The notes under the pieces were generated by a model. The model did not search any database. It saw nothing but the letters and a program-made list of their open reading frames with translations, and was not told the origin of the DNA. Positions 23,222-39,160 of a stretch of DNA of 48,167 bases are shown here, piece after piece. Position 1 is the first letter of the stretch, and each line of letters starts with the position of its first letter. A program made the translations under genes and the position numbers. Origin of the DNA: a bacterium (GTDB lineage Bacteria; DUMJ01); assembly GCA_014360335.1 (NCBI GenBank), contig JACIXS010000419.1, positions 1 to 48,167 on the forward strand. The letters run 5' to 3'.

Positions 23222-23684
23222 AGAGTTATATAAAGAAGTTATATTAGACCATTACCAAAATCCAAGAAATTATGGAGAAATCCCTTATGCTTATTCTTCT
23301 GAAGGGATAAATCCCTTATGTAAGTCTGAAGGCGAAAATCCTATATGTGGTGATGCTATATATATTCAGTTTCTAGTAAAGGATAATAGATTAGAGGATA
23401 TAAGGTTTACAGGAACAGGATGCACAATAAGCCAGGCATCTGCATCTATTATGACAGAGTTAGTTAAGGGTAAGTCTTTAGAAGATGTAAAGACTTTAAT
23501 CATTAGATTCAAAAGGATAATGGAAGGAGAAGAGGATTTTACTGAAGATTTGGGAGACCTTTTGGCTTTTGAAGGTGTAAGGAAGCTTCCTGCTCGGATC
23601 AAATGTGCATTACTTGCTTGGGAAGTTTTATTAGAAGGGATAAAGAAATATCTAGAAAGGCAGGTGGAGAGGGTAAATGTATAA
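23211..23684 (+). CDS. sufU: SufU, zinc-dependent sulfurtransferase
   Basis: A protein of 157 residues from GTG at 23211, preferred because GAGGAGGT ends eight bases upstream; an in-frame TTG at 23193 lies inside that ribosome site. Conserved SufU features are ILDHYQNPRNYG near the start, NPICGDAIYI (Cys and Asp ligands), TGTGCTISQASASIM and the C-terminal RIKCALLAW. SufU takes persulfide sulfur from SufS at a zinc site and hands it to SufB. It overlaps sufS by 11 bases and the following mtaB gene by eight. Confidence 0.93.
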   Translation: MELKELYKEVILDHYQNPRNYGEIPYAYSSEGINPLCKSEGENPICGDAIYIQFLVKDNRLEDIRFTGTGCTISQASASIMTELVKGKSLEDVKTLIIRFKRIMEGEEDFTEDLGDLLAFEGVRKLPARIKCALLAWEVLLEGIKKYLERQVERVNV

Positions 23685-25053
23685 AAGTATGGCTTACTCC
23701 TCTTGGGATGAGATGGTCTTTGGTAAGGCTTTATATCCAGTAAGGTGTGGTTTTGACTTGGAGATAGGGGGAGGAATAGTTCATCCTGAACTTAAGTACC
23801 ACCCGAGGCCAGGAACGGAGAGAGATTTCGATACAATCTATCATGAGTACGAGAGAATGACAAGGGATATCTTAGATCGATGTATCCAGATAGGACTTCC
23901 TTCTGTTGTGTTAGAGCTTGAGCATGTATTTCAGCTTACAGATAATCCGAGATGGGGGAAAGAGATAGCACATATGACTAAATGGTTATTAAAAGAGTAC
24001 TATGATAAATTTGGTCTTAAAAGTGCTCTTCGTGTTACTGTAGCAGATATTAGGAAGCCAGAAAATGGATACAGAGCTTCAAGAGAGTACGACAAAATAT
24101 TGGAGAGTTTTAGATTATCCGCAGAAGCTGGAGCGGATATCCTTTCTATAGAATCTACTGGAGGAAAAGAAGTCTTTAATTATGCGGTAACAAGGCAAGA
24201 TTTAGTTGGATGCCTATTTGCTGTAGGTGTCCTGGGCTCTCTAGATATGGAATATCTATGGAAGTATATAGTTAGTATAGCTAGAGAATATAACGTTATA
24301 CCTGGAGGAGATACAGATTGCGCCCATTCAAATTCTGCTATGTTCCTAGCTGGTGGATTTACCAGTAATGAGTTGTCCCATATATTTTCTGCTCTCATAA
24401 GGGCAATAGGTTCCGCTAGGTCTTTAGTAGCCTTTGATGTTGGAGCTAAAGGTCCCGATAAGGATTGTGGTTATGAAGGCCCAATTATAAAGGCAATTAC
24501 TGGATGTCCAATATCTATGGAGGGGAAAAGCTGTGCCTGTGCCCATTCAGACCTTATGGGTAATATTTCTGCTGCTGTATGTGATTTATGGAGTAATGAG
24601 GCAGTCCAATATGGAGAGATGTTTGGTGGAACTACACCCGCAGTCTTTACCGAGATTTTAGGCTATGATGTAGCTCAGATGAACTCCGCTATAAAATTGG
24701 GAGTTGAAAAAGTTTTAAGGGATATATTTATCGCATCTGACGAATTACGAGACCCTCAAGCATATGTAATCTCTCCGAGGGTTGCTTATAATATAGGAGC
24801 TAGTCTTATACTAGGTAAAAACTATTATGAACGGTCTCTCTTTGCTCTTAGAAGAGCTTATGAGGAGTTAGAAAAGGCTATAAAAGAGAATGTATTAGCG
24901 GTATCACCGAAGGAGAGAGAGGTTCTTTCCGAATGTGGAAGAATTATAGATGAATTACCAGAATCAGAAGAGAAGTTTATTGCAAGCTGTATAAAAAGGT
25001 ATAAAGATATAGTGCCAAACTTTAGACTGGACTCTTATGGTCTGGAGGGATAG
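23677..25053 (+). CDS. mtaB: MtaB-like methanol:corrinoid methyltransferase
   Basis: A 458-residue zinc methyltransferase matching MtaB in length and pattern. Zinc-ligand cysteines are seen in GGDTDCAHSNS (about residues 208-218) and GKSCACAHSDLMGN (about 281-294), with FDVGAKGPDKDCGYEGP between. MtaB moves the methyl group of methanol to the cobalt of the corrinoid protein MtaC. The gene for an MtaA-MtaC fusion follows after two bases, so the methyl relay is encoded together. In acetogenic bacteria the acceptor is tetrahydrofolate, in methanogens coenzyme M; nothing here decides the acceptor. The start overlaps sufU by eight bases; an ATG four codons on is an alternative. Confidence 0.9.
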   Translation: MYKSMAYSSWDEMVFGKALYPVRCGFDLEIGGGIVHPELKYHPRPGTERDFDTIYHEYERMTRDILDRCIQIGLPSVVLELEHVFQLTDNPRWGKEIAHMTKWLLKEYYDKFGLKSALRVTVADIRKPENGYRASREYDKILESFRLSAEAGADILSIESTGGKEVFNYAVTRQDLVGCLFAVGVLGSLDMEYLWKYIVSIAREYNVIPGGDTDCAHSNSAMFLAGGFTSNELSHIFSALIRAIGSARSLVAFDVGAKGPDKDCGYEGPIIKAITGCPISMEGKSCACAHSDLMGNISAAVCDLWSNEAVQYGEMFGGTTPAVFTEILGYDVAQMNSAIKLGVEKVLRDIFIASDELRDPQAYVISPRVAYNIGASLILGKNYYERSLFALRRAYEELEKAIKENVLAVSPKEREVLSECGRIIDELPESEEKFIASCIKRYKDIVPNFRLDSYGLEG

Positions 25054-25055
25054 AA

Positions 25056-26810
25056 ATGACCCCAAAGAAAAGAGTAATATCTGCGATTTTAGGTTCCAAA
25101 AGATTAGATAGGATTCCTATAGTGTGTGTAAATCAGACCGCTACTAAGGATCAGTTATCAAGACTTGGTATAAGCTTTTTCGATGCTCATAAAAATCCAG
25201 AAAAGATGGCTAGACTGTCCCTTTCTGCTGTAGAAATTCTTGGATTTGATAATGTAAGAGTCCCCTTCTGTCAGACTGTAGAGGCAGAAGCACTTGGCTG
25301 TAAGATAAGATTTCCTGATGACAGTCTCCCATCTGTTGAGACTCACCCATTCAAGATAGATTCCCCAATAACATTGCCTAGTGACGTCCTATCTAGAGGA
25401 AGAATTCCAGTTGTAATATCAGTAGTAGAGAAACTATCTAAAGAGGTTGGAAAAGAATATCCTGTTGTAGCTGGTATAGTTGGTCCTTTTAGTCTAGCTG
25501 GATATCTCTTGGGACTGAATGATGTTCTAGTTGCATCTATTTCTGATCCTGGGTCTTTAAAGAGATTTCTTGATGTGACCTTAGATTTAGGGATAATTTA
25601 TGGTAAGGCTCTTATTGACGCTGGAGCAGATATTATATGTGTAGAAGATATGAGTGCAAGTACAGAAATGATAAGCCCTCAAGCGTATAAAGATGTGGTT
25701 TTACCTTATCATAAGAGGCTTTTCGAAGAATTGAAATCTGTTATTACCGTCTTACATATATGTGGTAATGTAACTCCAATAATTACATATATGGCAGATA
25801 GTGGAGCAGACGCATTAAGTATAGACCACAAGTTAGACCTTTCTACTGCAATTCAGGTAAAAGATAAAGTGTCCCTAATTGGTAATCTTGATCCAGTAAA
25901 GATATTATTACAAAGTAGTCCTAACGATGTGATAAGCGCTGGAAACAAGGCGTTAGAAGATGGCGTAGATGTGCTAGCTCCGGGCTGTAGTCTGGCATTA
26001 GAGACGCCTACAGAGAATATCAGAGCACTACAGATGGTCTCTCTACCTAAATCGTCCTACACTGTATCTAAAAAAGTGAAGAAGGATATGGAAGTCTTTA
26101 CTAGATACGACCTATATAGAAGAGAAGAGATGGTTAAAAAAAGAGAAGTGGGAAACATCTTAGAAGAGGTAAGAGAAGCAGTAGTAGCTGGTGATAGTAA
26201 GAAGGTTGTAGATTCAGTGAAGAAAGCCTTAGAAATCTATGACCCTATAGAAGTCATAAACAAAGGATTGGTAGAGGGTATTAATATTGTTGGTGAACTC
26301 TGGAACAGTGGGGAATATTTTCTTCCTCAGGTGATTCTCTCTGCAGATGCTATGCAAGTAGGAATAAAGATATGCGAAGAAACAATGGGGAGACCTATAG
26401 AGAAGAAGGGAAGAATTGTTATGCATGTAGCGGAAGGGGATATCCATACTATAGGAAAAGATATAGTTAAGGCATTATTAATAGCATATGGATACGAAGT
26501 GATTGACCTTGGTGTAGATGTCCCTGTAGAAAAGGTAGTAGAGGCGGTTAAGAAGTATAAACCTTGTCTACTTACTGGAAGCGCTCTTATGACTACTACT
26601 ATGTCTGCCTTCCCTAAGATAGCAGAGAGACTAGAGGAAGAAGGGATAGAGGTCCCATTTGCCTGCGGTGGTGGAGCGGTAAATCAAGAATTCTGCGAGA
26701 GTTTTAAATTTGGCATATACGGTGGAAAAGCAATAAATGCCCCATTGATAGCAGAGGCTGCTAGAAGCGGTAAGTCTTGGCAAGAGATAAGAAAGATGTT
26801 TCATAAGTGA
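25056..26810 (+). CDS. Fusion: MtaA-like corrinoid methyltransferase + MtaC-like corrinoid-binding protein
   Basis: A 584-residue protein with two joined parts. Residues about 1-335 are a URO-D/MtaA-type methyltransferase, with zinc-ligand candidates in LHICGN (His about 234, Cys about 236) and [11 protein letters not shown] (Cys about 310). Residues about 370-450 form the helical cap of corrinoid proteins ([19 protein letters not shown]), and about 455-584 form the B12-binding domain with [10 protein letters not shown], whose His (about 464) is the lower cobalt ligand. Normally MtaA and MtaC are separate. The fused protein would accept a methyl group from the MtaB-like enzyme and pass it on to tetrahydrofolate or another acceptor. 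Other methyl substrates cannot be ruled out. Confidence 0.88.
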
Positions 26811-34529: not shown

Positions 34530-34607
34530 CCATAATATCAAGGTTTGTATTAGGGTCTTATTTTTGATAGAATAGAGTAGAAAAAAGTCTTATTAGGAGG
34601 ATTGCAC

Positions 34608-37148
34608 TTGAGTAGTTCTGGATATGTTAATCCTTATTTAAATAGGATGCTTTCAGCTATAAAGTTAGATAAAGTATTTATACGAGGAGAAGGAAACTAT
34701 CTTTACGATGAAAATGGTATCCGCTATCTAGATTTCATATCCTCTTTTGGAGCTTTGCCGTTTGGATTTAACCATCCAGAGATATGGGAGGTTTTAGAAA
34801 GGATAAAGAAGGAGTCTATCCCTACCATTGTTCAGGCTTCTATTTCCAGGTATCAAGAAGAGGTAGCGGAAAAGTTGATTAATCTAGCCCCAGAAGGGTT
34901 TAGATATGTAGTATTTGCCAATTCTGGAACAGAAGCGGTTGAGATGGCTACAAAGATAGTTTCTCTATTGACTGGTAAAGAGAGATTAATAGTCGCCAAA
35001 GGTGGTTATCACGGTGTACAGAATGAAAGATTTACATATATACCATATGGAGATATAAGTGCTTTAGAGGAAGAGATAGAGAAGAATGCTAAGTATTATG
35101 CTGGTTTTATAGTAGAGCCTATTCAAGGAGAAGGAGGTATAATCTTACCTCCAGAGGATTATCTATCTAAGGTTAAATTCCTCTGCCATAAACATAACAT
35201 CGTATTTATATTAGATGAGATACAAACTGGTTTAGGCAGAACTGGTTCTCTTTTTTTGTGTGAAGGGAAAGACTTTATCCCAGACATATTACTTATTGGT
35301 AAGGTGTTAGGTGGGGGCTTATATCCTATAGGAGCCTGCCTAATTAGAGAAGAATTCTATCCAGAAGGTTTTGATCTGAATAATTTTTCTACTTTTGCGG
35401 GGAATAACATCGCCTGTATGATAGCGGATAAGGTTCTAGATATTTTGACGAGGGATGGTAGAAATTTGATAGACAGAATAAAAGAGAATGGGGAGAGATT
35501 AATTAAGGAGCTATTAAAGTTAAAGGATGAATTTCCCAATCTTATAAAAGATGTAAGAGGTAGAGGGTATTTATTAGGTATAGAATTAGAAATGAATAGA
35601 AGGATATATCCCCAAAGTATACTGAGTGTTCTCTCTGAACAGGAGAGGTTGGTTCCTCTAGTGATTAGTTATCTGTTGAATGAGAAGAGGATAAGATTAG
35701 CCCCTACGTTAAAAAATAATAAGGTTATAAGATTAGAGCCTTCTTTTATAACTACTTGGGACGAATGTCAAGAGGTTATAGATTCTCTTAAAAGTGTTTT
35801 TAATATCTTAGACAGAATGAATACTCCAGAGATTATACGTCCAATTCTTAATATAAGTAAAGAAAGTCTTTCAGTATATAATCTAGATATTATTGATAGA
35901 GAGCCTTGGGAAGATATTTCTCCTTCTTTGGAGGATGGACGTTTTGCCTTTTTAGTTCATCCCCTTGACCTTACAAACTATTATGAGTTTGACCCAACCC
36001 TTTCTGTCCTTCCTAAAGATAGGATAGCTCTCTTTTCTGAGATTGGAAAAGATTTAATAAAACCCTTTGTCATAGGAAAGGTCAGGTTAACTTCGGATTG
36101 TGGAGCTACCGCTTATGGTGAGTTTATAAATATCCCATACACTGCAAGACAGATGATAGAGACACCTCAAGATATAATACTTAAAGTAATAGAAGATGCT
36201 ATTACTCTTGCTATTGATAGAGGAGCAAGGATTCTTGGATTAGGTGCTTATACTTCTGTAGTTACAAGGGGGGGAACCTTAATCAAAGATAAGTATATTC
36301 CTCTAACTACAGGTAATAGCTACACTGTAGTAGCTAGTGTAGATGCATTAAAATTAGCTTCAGGTAAATTAGGAATTAATCTAAATCAAAGTACTGTTAG
36401 TGTTATAGGAGCAACTGGGTCTATAGGAAGGGCTTTAGCTATACTTTTGTCTGAAGATGTCCGTAGAATAATTTTAGTTGGAAATCCCTCTCACCCTAAG
36501 TCTAGCTCTAGGAGATTGAGAAAAGTGGGAGTGGACCTATGTGTGAATATAGTTAGACGTCTAGAATCTGGATGGAGACCTAATGATAAAACTATTGGTG
36601 ATTATCTATCAACCCTGAAGTTACCTCCTTTTGAAGACTTAGATAGCTGGGAAGAGATATTAGATTTACTTGAAGAGAAAGGTTATATAACAATTACTAC
36701 AGACCTTCCTTTGGCTGTGTCTTCTTCTGATATAATCGTTACAGCCACTAATAGTCCTAAAGAACTTATAGAACCTACCTATGTGAAGTTTGGAGCTATT
36801 ATATGCGATATATCTAGACCTCCTAATGTAAGTCCTCTGATGAAAGAGTTAAGACCAGATGTTTTGGTGATTGATGGTGGAGTCGTAGAAATACCTGGTA
36901 GACCATCACTAGGTTGGTACTTTGGATTTGAGAGAGGGTTAGCTTATGCCTGTATGGCAGAAACAATGATGTTAGCATTAGAAAAAAATTATTCTGATAT
37001 GAGCTTAGGAAGTGACCTTACGATAGAAGGAATCAATTATTTTAGGGAATTGGCAAAAAAACACGGATTTAAGATAAGCCAGCTGAGGAGTTTTGATAGA
37101 CCTGTCTCTGAAGAAGATTGGAATAAACTTATAGCCTCTAGACAATGA
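34608..37148 (+). CDS. Fusion: class III aminotransferase + acyl-ACP-reductase-like domain
   Basis: The TTG at 34608 is chosen because TAGGAGG ends seven bases upstream; TTG at 34602 is only one base from it. The 846-residue protein has a PLP class III aminotransferase (about 1-395) with NSGTEAVEMA, ILDEIQTGLGRTG and Lys 232 in LIGKVLGGGLYP. The second part (about 415-846) resembles cyanobacterial long-chain acyl-ACP reductase: TTGNSYT, the nucleotide motif IGATGSIGRA, IDGGVVEIPG and YACMAET, whose Cys (about 782) matches the Cys that forms the acyl thioester in that enzyme. Taken together the enzyme could reduce an acyl thioester to an aldehyde and transaminate it to an amine; this is inference. 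It overlaps the next gene's 3' end by 11 bases, convergent. Confidence 0.85.
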   Translation: MSSSGYVNPYLNRMLSAIKLDKVFIRGEGNYLYDENGIRYLDFISSFGALPFGFNHPEIWEVLERIKKESIPTIVQASISRYQEEVAEKLINLAPEGFRYVVFANSGTEAVEMATKIVSLLTGKERLIVAKGGYHGVQNERFTYIPYGDISALEEEIEKNAKYYAGFIVEPIQGEGGIILPPEDYLSKVKFLCHKHNIVFILDEIQTGLGRTGSLFLCEGKDFIPDILLIGKVLGGGLYPIGACLIREEFYPEGFDLNNFSTFAGNNIACMIADKVLDILTRDGRNLIDRIKENGERLIKELLKLKDEFPNLIKDVRGRGYLLGIELEMNRRIYPQSILSVLSEQERLVPLVISYLLNEKRIRLAPTLKNNKVIRLEPSFITTWDECQEVIDSLKSVFNILDRMNTPEIIRPILNISKESLSVYNLDIIDREPWEDISPSLEDGRFAFLVHPLDLTNYYEFDPTLSVLPKDRIALFSEIGKDLIKPFVIGKVRLTSDCGATAYGEFINIPYTARQMIETPQDIILKVIEDAITLAIDRGARILGLGAYTSVVTRGGTLIKDKYIPLTTGNSYTVVASVDALKLASGKLGINLNQSTVSVIGATGSIGRALAILLSEDVRRIILVGNPSHPKSSSRRLRKVGVDLCVNIVRRLESGWRPNDKTIGDYLSTLKLPPFEDLDSWEEILDLLEEKGYITITTDLPLAVSSSDIIVTATNSPKELIEPTYVKFGAIICDISRPPNVSPLMKELRPDVLVIDGGVVEIPGRPSLGWYFGFERGLAYACMAETMMLALEKNYSDMSLGSDLTIEGINYFRELAKKHGFKISQLRSFDRPVSEEDWNKLIASRQ

Positions 37149-37706: not shown

Positions 37707-37874
37707 ATGGGAAGACATATCAGGATAATAACAGAATCATCAATAGATAAGAAAGAGGCGAAGAAGAATTGTCAGGAGTGTCAGACTCCTTGTAGGTCTG
37801 CCTGCAAGACTAGTATGACGGTCGGGAATCTAGTCTGCGAGGTAAAGAGACCATTAGGGAAATGGACTTGGTGA
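37707..37874 (+). CDS. SCIFF-family ribosomal peptide precursor (five-cysteine variant)
   Basis: A 55-residue peptide gene with GGAGG six bases before its ATG. The core NCQECQTPCRSACKTSMTV matches SCIFF peptides (six cysteines in forty-five residues), which a radical-SAM enzyme converts to a thioether-linked product. Cysteines are C22, C25, C29, C33 and C44. The pair known to form the thioether in clostridial SCIFF (Cys and a Thr five residues on) is kept as C33 and T38, but the usual fifth cysteine is M37. The C-terminus runs about ten residues past the last Cys and ends in KWTW. The maturase gene follows, overlapping by up to 13 bases. SCIFF function in the cell is unknown. Confidence 0.9.
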   Translation: MGRHIRIITESSIDKKEAKKNCQECQTPCRSACKTSMTVGNLVCEVKRPLGKWTW

Positions 37875-39160
37875 AGAGAGATTGGCATCCATTCTCTATC
37901 CAGGGAGAATATTTTTTATTTAACAGTCTTGGTTCCCTCTATCAATTAGATGAAGAGGGGGCTAAGGCTGTTGAATCTATCCTTGAAGGAAATAAAGACC
38001 CTCATATTTCTGAAGAGGTCTACAGAGAGATAGAAGAGGTATTAGCCCCTTATGAGTCTGTTGAGATTCAAACTTACGATAACTTGACATTGAAATCTCT
38101 CTGCCTGAATGTTTCTCATTCCTGTAATATGCTCTGCAATTACTGTTTTACAAGTCATAATCTTACATCTGATGGATCTCTTATGAGCTTAGAGACAGCC
38201 TGTAAGGCGATAGATTTCTTAATTGAGGCTTCAAAGGATACGAAGAACATAGAGATAGATTTCTTTGGGGGAGAGCCATTATTAAATTTGGATGTTGTTA
38301 GGGATGCAAGTATATACGGAAAGAAGAGGGCAATCGAGTCTAATAAAAATCTAAGGATAACTCTTACTACAAATGGTCTTCTTCTATCTGAAAAGAATTT
38401 AGACTTACTAGATAAGTTAGAAATAAGTATAGTCTTAAGTCTCGATGGAGGTGAGAAGGTACATAATATACATAGACATTTAATAAATGGGGACGGTTCT
38501 TTTGAGTATATATTACCTAATGCTATGGAGCTAGCTAGAAGGAGACAAGAGGGAGGATACTATATAAGAGGTACTTATACCGCAGAGACTTTAAACTTTT
38601 CTGATAGTTTTAAAGAGCTGGTTGACCTAGGATTTAGGTATATATCTCTTGAACCTGTAGTAACAAGTGATAAGTATCTTTCAATAAAGCAAGAACATAT
38701 CCCTATTTTGAGAGAAGAGTACAGAAAGGTAGCAGAAGAATGTTTGAAAAGTGACGTAAAGTTTTTTCACTTTGAATTACCATTAGAAGAAGGAGCTTGT
38801 TTACCGAGATTAGCTAGAGGATGCGGTGCTGGAGTAGAGTATATGGCAGTAACCCCTGCTGGTGAGATATATCCCTGCCATCAGTTTGTTGGACATACCC
38901 AATTTAAATTAGGTAATATTGAGGGAAGACATATTAACAAAGATTTACAGGAGAAATTTAAAATCTTAAATAGCATAGATAATAAGCCTATATGTAGAGA
39001 TTGCTGGGCTAGATACCTCTGTGGAGGAGGTTGCCTAGCCAACAATTTCAATATAAATAGGAATATTACAGAGCCATACGGAGTTGGTTGTGAGATACAA
39101 AAGTTAAGAATAGAATATGCTCTATGGTTAAGAGCAAAAAGATTGGAGGTAAAGGTATGA
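37862..39160 (+). CDS. SCIFF radical-SAM maturase (SPASM type)
   Basis: A radical-SAM enzyme of up to 432 residues. The cluster motif is CNMLCNYC (CX3CX2C, about residues 88-95), followed by FFGGEPLLN (about 139-147) and TTNGLLL. The C-terminal SPASM/Twitch region has cysteines in RGCGAGVEYMAVTPAG, YPCHQF, CRDCWARYLCGGGCLAN and VGCEI for two further Fe-S clusters. It sits directly after the SCIFF peptide gene, so it is the thioether-forming maturase. Start choice is uncertain: AGGGA at 37856-37860 suits TTG 37868 or GTG 37871 better than ATG 37862, costing two or three residues. The beta-barrel gene starts within its stop codon. Confidence 0.9.
   Translation: MDLVKRDWHPFSIQGEYFLFNSLGSLYQLDEEGAKAVESILEGNKDPHISEEVYREIEEVLAPYESVEIQTYDNLTLKSLCLNVSHSCNMLCNYCFTSHNLTSDGSLMSLETACKAIDFLIEASKDTKNIEIDFFGGEPLLNLDVVRDASIYGKKRAIESNKNLRITLTTNGLLLSEKNLDLLDKLEISIVLSLDGGEKVHNIHRHLINGDGSFEYILPNAMELARRRQEGGYYIRGTYTAETLNFSDSFKELVDLGFRYISLEPVVTSDKYLSIKQEHIPILREEYRKVAEECLKSDVKFFHFELPLEEGACLPRLARGCGAGVEYMAVTPAGEIYPCHQFVGHTQFKLGNIEGRHINKDLQEKFKILNSIDNKPICRDCWARYLCGGGCLANNFNINRNITEPYGVGCEIQKLRIEYALWLRAKRLEVKV

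Follow-up and report, generated by a model that had tools for sequence, protein, structure and literature searches.

At one locus of a 48,167-nucleotide bacterial contig (the window, by which we mean this whole stretch of DNA) we observe a gene that joins a class III PLP aminotransferase to a thioester reductase resembling cyanobacterial acyl-ACP reductase (AAR). The host is an uncultured, apparently anaerobic bacterium. The gene occupies an intact frame, and the opposite strand of the same interval carries many stops. Its TTG start and the purine-rich site ahead of it are kept in three congeners including the window species, the gene is found in all three species of the genus in our collection, local gene order is conserved among the three genomes, and the whole-gene dN/dS against the congeners is ~0.1. 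The intact frame, together with matches to both halves that are far beyond chance, confirms that the fusion proposed in a sequence-only reading of this DNA is real. The coordinates of the gene and of related features elsewhere are collected in Table 1. As to the genus itself, its nearest kin in the genome collection were placed with it as "same domain" only, which suggests a deeply separate lineage, and our rRNA search gave no match in its three genomes.

Table 1. Features of the fusion gene and of related loci. Positions are those of the window unless a genome, contig or locus handle precedes them.
Feature	Position	Strand	Basis or remark
Fusion gene, 846 aa	34608-37148	+	One open frame, 846 codons, no internal stops
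Ribosome-binding site AGGAGG	34595-34600	+	7 bases upstream of TTG start 34608
Class III PLP aminotransferase domain, residues 1-400	34608-35807	+	Pfam PF00202; Foldseek PigE 4ppm, YgjG 4uox
YHG motif, residues 134-136	35007-35015	+	~20 residues absent directly after
Asp203 of DEIQTGLGRTG, predicted PLP N1 ligand	35214-35216	+	Identical in 50/50 fusions
Lys232, predicted PLP Schiff-base lysine	35301-35303	+	Identical in 50/50 fusions
Inter-domain linker, residues 401-444	35808-35939	+	dN/dS 0.18-0.44, above either domain
AAR-like thioester reductase domain, residues 445-846	35940-37145	+	Sequence and model matches to AAR/PigE
TTGN segment, residues 567-570	36306-36317	+	T567, G569, N570 invariant in set A1
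Nucleotide-binding GATGSIG (GxxGxxG), residues 601-607	36408-36428	+	Three glycines identical in 50/50 fusions
Cys782 in YACMAET, predicted acyl-accepting cysteine	36951-36953	+	Aligned with AAR Cys294, PigE Cys296
c8 of window genome	G000:C412:32759-33649 (L193:7257-8150)	- (in L193)	Family repeatedly adjoining or fused to AAR-like reductase
PlsY-type acyltransferase fused to AAR-like reductase, family f20	L170:7865-9526; L171:7772-9730; L172:7895-9571	+; +; +	

The two halves of the protein were assigned separately. Residues 6-400 correspond to Pfam Aminotran_3 (PF00202; 257 bits, E 2.9e-76), and Lys232 aligns with the segments AKALGGG and SKSLSGG of YgjG and PigE. Residues 445-846 match the PigE model (E 5.2e-48), the AAR model TIGR04058 (E 7.6e-23) and the sequences of the AAR crystal structures (E 5e-16); Pfam gives a weak Shikimate_DH match only on this half. 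Lys232, Cys782 of YACMAET, TTGN and IGATGSIG all lie exactly where the sequence-only reading had put them, and none of the 50 fusions compared varies at Lys232, Cys782, Glu785 or the three glycines. AlphaFold2 models built from homologue alignments gave pLDDT 91 and pTM 0.85 for the full-length protein, with high confidence in the aminotransferase region apart from one shortened loop, and pLDDT 93 and pTM 0.91 for the reductase domain alone. In Foldseek searches, PigE (4ppm) and YgjG (4uox) came out on top for the whole protein. For the reductase domain the top entry was AAR 6jzu (E 9e-22), and the four best distinct PDB entries were all AAR.

The aminotransferase had been described as complete, but this does not hold for the shortened loop. 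The segment that follows (F/Y)HG in related proteins, KTLGALSATGxxYQxxFxAPV (~20 residues), is absent from the window protein and its two congeners. Using the FHGKT loop with its lysine as a criterion derived in this analysis rather than a published one, we find it in 47 of the 50 fusions as well as in PigE and YgjG, so that it is lacking only in the window's genus. In YgjG the lysine of this segment, Lys183, stands where acetylornithine, ornithine and GABA aminotransferases have an arginine that binds a carboxylate (PMC4244111). This substitution would fit an aliphatic aldehyde as substrate. Loss of the loop may therefore allow the aminotransferase of this genus to accept other substrates. 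Purifying selection is as strong on this half (dN/dS 0.08-0.11) as on the reductase half (0.09-0.10), which argues that the aminotransferase is not decaying.

Described enzymes with these domains bear directly on function. The sequence-only reading knew of no enzyme with this fusion; TamH of tambjamine YP1 biosynthesis in Pseudoalteromonas tunicata, however, is a fatty-amine-forming enzyme with an identical arrangement of the two domains (PMC9594044). With the ligase-ACP protein TamA, NADH and L-Glu it converts a C12 acid to the C12 amine, and omitting glutamate gives C12 aldehyde instead (PMC9594044). Compared by its published description rather than by sequence alignment, TamH likewise places a PLP class III transaminase before an AAR-like thioester reductase, with the GxxGxxG motif, the catalytic Cys and the Lys (PMC9594044). 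TamH is longer (941 aa vs 846 aa) and works with TamA inside a pyrrole cluster, whereas the window protein lacks the FHGKT loop and no partner of that sort is encoded near its gene. A 978-aa protein of Photobacterium, similar to TamH in length, aligns across both domains in the same order, with 29% identity over the main segment.

PigE of the prodigiosin pathway, in which a thioester was reduced and then transaminated in cell lysate (PMC8341465), is homologous to the window protein in both domains (E 5.4e-84 overall; E 2e-28 for the reductase half alone). Its domain order is the opposite, with the reductase first and the aminotransferase second; its substrate is a branched 3-acetylacyl thioester, and it lies far from the window protein in the reductase tree. 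The closest characterised homologs, TamH and PigE, thus act on acyl thioesters and not on the glutamyl or shikimate-type substrates that had been named as the contrary outcome. Cyanobacterial AAR (PDB 6jzq-6jzz) has its fold, cofactor site and active Cys in common with the C-terminal half, but is a stand-alone enzyme that feeds an oxygen-dependent decarbonylase and is ~20-22% identical to the window reductase by structural alignment. The putrescine aminotransferase YgjG/PatA (PDB 4uox) is the closest well-studied stand-alone fold for the N-terminal half (~30% identical), with the difference that it retains the Lys183 segment. The window protein scores below the curated cut-offs of all of these families: 456.6 vs 850 bits for PigE (NF053554), 81.4 vs 449.7 for AAR (TIGR04058), and 202.1 vs 658.65 and 243.7 vs 612 for YgjG (TIGR03372 and NF008570).

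By analogy with TamH, PigE and AAR, the observed domain content, domain order, fold, catalytic residues and purifying selection suggest that the window protein is probably a bifunctional acyl-thioester-to-amine enzyme of the TamH kind, working through what is likely a fatty aldehyde. Cys782 of the C-terminal domain would accept the acyl chain, which is most likely that of a fatty acid carried on the ordinary acyl carrier protein, and the domain would reduce it with NAD(P)H to the aldehyde. The N-terminal PLP domain would then transaminate the aldehyde to a primary amine, taking the amino group from glutamate or another amino acid. The sequence-only reading had proposed this course from acyl thioester through aldehyde to transamination, and homology to TamH and PigE supports it well (PMC9594044, PMC8341465). 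We suggest with less confidence that the substrate is a long-chain acyl-ACP, and that the amine may be destined for a lipid and not for a secreted natural product. This is a known kind of enzyme; what differs here is the trimmed loop, the location outside a biosynthetic cluster, and the co-occurrence in anaerobes with a protein we call c8.

The domain search across genomes that the earlier reading had called for, made as a single scan, recovered 80 loci. Most of these are fusions, and the loci belong to Peptococcaceae, Syntrophomonadaceae, Halanaerobiales, Chloroflexota, Acidobacteriota, Myxococcota, Pseudomonas and Chromobacterium. The fusions of Pseudomonas and Chromobacterium lie beside an AMP-binding ligase and a fatty acid desaturase, several also beside an ACP and a ketosynthase. 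The Photobacterium fusion is found with ketosynthases, FabG-like reductases, a LolA-like protein and an MMPL transporter, and that on a Leisingera plasmid with an adenylate-forming enzyme and an MMPL transporter. The window and Firmicutes fusions have ordinary neighbours (tRNA synthetase, peptidases, formyl-THF ligase, glycosyltransferase). No acyl ligase, ACP or lipid partner was found among the window proteins searched, and the single ACP of the window genome is encoded away from the fusion, beside ORFs resembling fab genes. In the reductase tree, which has long branches, all 32 aminotransferase-reductase fusions fall on one side of a branch with support 87, away from the PigE order; these fusions may have a single origin.

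Several neighbours were considered individually. The glycosyltransferase and radical-SAM genes proved uninformative as partners, being conserved only within the genus. An exosortase link was also rejected: VPLPA-CTERM genes adjoin two relatives on plasmids, and XrtD is a further neighbour of one of these, but the window genome is without an exosortase. The Pseudomonas and Chromobacterium loci (L041-L058) make up an apparently undescribed lipid-type cluster that also contains a LolA-like protein and an FtsX-like permease. Directly upstream of the Peptococcaceae fusions, and of the stand-alone reductases of other Firmicutes, we observed a small helix-turn-helix protein (c1; L008:7395-7964, + strand) that is a possible regulator; a search of the window genome, made with no positive control, did not find it.

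The same two-step chemistry could act on a short or polar acyl thioester, amino-acid-derived or dicarboxylic, to give a small diamine or an amino acid. By general models the aminotransferase is nearest the putrescine and acetylornithine enzymes, the reductase distantly shares ancestry with glutamyl-tRNA reductase, and no fatty acid genes adjoin the fusion in the window. We nevertheless consider this substrate class improbable: the reductase is AAR/PigE-like in both sequence and fold, the clustered relatives sit beside fatty-acyl ligase, desaturase, ACP and ketosynthase genes, and characterised relatives use C7-C14 aldehydes or a 3-acetyloctanoyl thioester.

The loop loss raises a different issue, namely that the aminotransferase half has changed role in the window's genus, so that mainly aldehyde is made and the PLP domain serves another reaction or a structural job. 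The confinement of the loss to three congeners, against retention of the loop in 47 other fusions, PigE and YgjG, and the long stem branch of the genus fit such a change, but it appears quite improbable given that dN/dS on this half is as low as on the reductase half, that Lys232, Asp203 and other PLP residues are kept, and that the region is confidently modelled outside the loop. Even harder to sustain is a role as a natural-product off-loading enzyme of a secondary-metabolite cluster, like TamH and PigE. Such clusters do house every characterised member as well as the relatives from Pseudomonas, Chromobacterium and Photobacterium; the ordinary neighbours in the window and in Firmicutes, the lack of any ligase or synthase near the gene, and its presence in all three species of the genus make this reading very unlikely here.

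The reductase module occurs in forms other than the fusion. A profile search detected the reductase in 48 of 386 genomes, and besides fusions we observe stand-alone copies, adjacent aminotransferase and reductase genes, and copies that carry c8 as an N-terminal fusion. At two loci (L143 and L144) c8, the aminotransferase and the reductase follow one another in that order and in one direction, so that the two domains appear as neighbouring genes with the aminotransferase ahead; at L150 and L157 the aminotransferase and reductase genes are a few kb apart. The c8 protein (~300 residues) has no relative in Pfam, NCBIfam or the PDB. It was found in 20 of the 26 genomes chosen for testing, including the three of the window's genus and each of the seven Firmicutes genomes with a fusion. 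Among these 26 it was not found in Pseudomonas, Chromobacterium, two genomes with cyanobacteria-like AAR, one genome lacking the reductase, and one fragmented genome with the reductase at a contig end. Reductase and c8 thus co-occur in the anaerobes tested. In the Syntrophomonadaceae, Halothermothrix and window genomes c8 adjoins GreA-like and LysS-like genes, the site at which stand-alone-reductase genomes have the reductase beside c8. This gene order suggests that an earlier free-standing reductase may have given way to the fusion.

Thermophiles provide a further form. Among 14 control genomes the AAR model matched the Deinococcota Thermus composti and Deinobacterium chartae as well as Synechococcus and Methanocaldococcus, and in family f20 an AAR-like reductase is fused to a PlsY-type acyltransferase. 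The superoxide dismutase at an f20 locus has 2 differences in 203 positions from PDB 1mng, and MglA of an f20 sister genome is close to PDB 3t12. Both structures are of Thermus thermophilus proteins, and these likenesses make it very likely that f20 belongs to the Thermaceae. A DdrB search found no Deinococcus among the 386 genomes. A glycolipid of T. thermophilus contains an iso-heptadecyl amine whose biosynthesis was described as under study (PMC3398001), and we propose that the PlsY-fused reductase supplies the aldehyde for it. A broader and tentative proposal, which we regard as unlikely, is that in anaerobes and thermophiles the AAR-like reductase, c8 and a free or fused class III aminotransferase make up a pathway devoted to turning acyl-ACP into long-chain alkylamines of membrane lipids, including the alkylamine of Thermus/Deinococcus phosphoglycolipids.

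If the assigned reaction is right, fatty-amine-forming fusions would not be confined to antibiotic clusters but would extend to several anaerobic lineages, where they are encoded in single-gene settings. To our knowledge, no fatty amine has been looked for in those lineages, and searches of the open-access literature turned up neither a paper on fusions of this type from anaerobes nor one on alkylamine-synthesis genes. The co-occurrence of c8 and the Thermus reductase provide a concrete gene list for how bacterial alkylamine lipids may arise, and the shortened loop would offer a naturally altered form of a biocatalyst for converting fatty acids to amines.

Two further genes of the window were observed. 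A radical SAM/SPASM protein (37862-39160, + strand) scores near the SCIFF maturase model, with 412.5 of 425 bits. Additionally, a methanol-cobalamin methyltransferase MtaB adjoins a URO-D/B12-binding protein (23677-26810, + strand), which suggests methanol use in an anaerobe.
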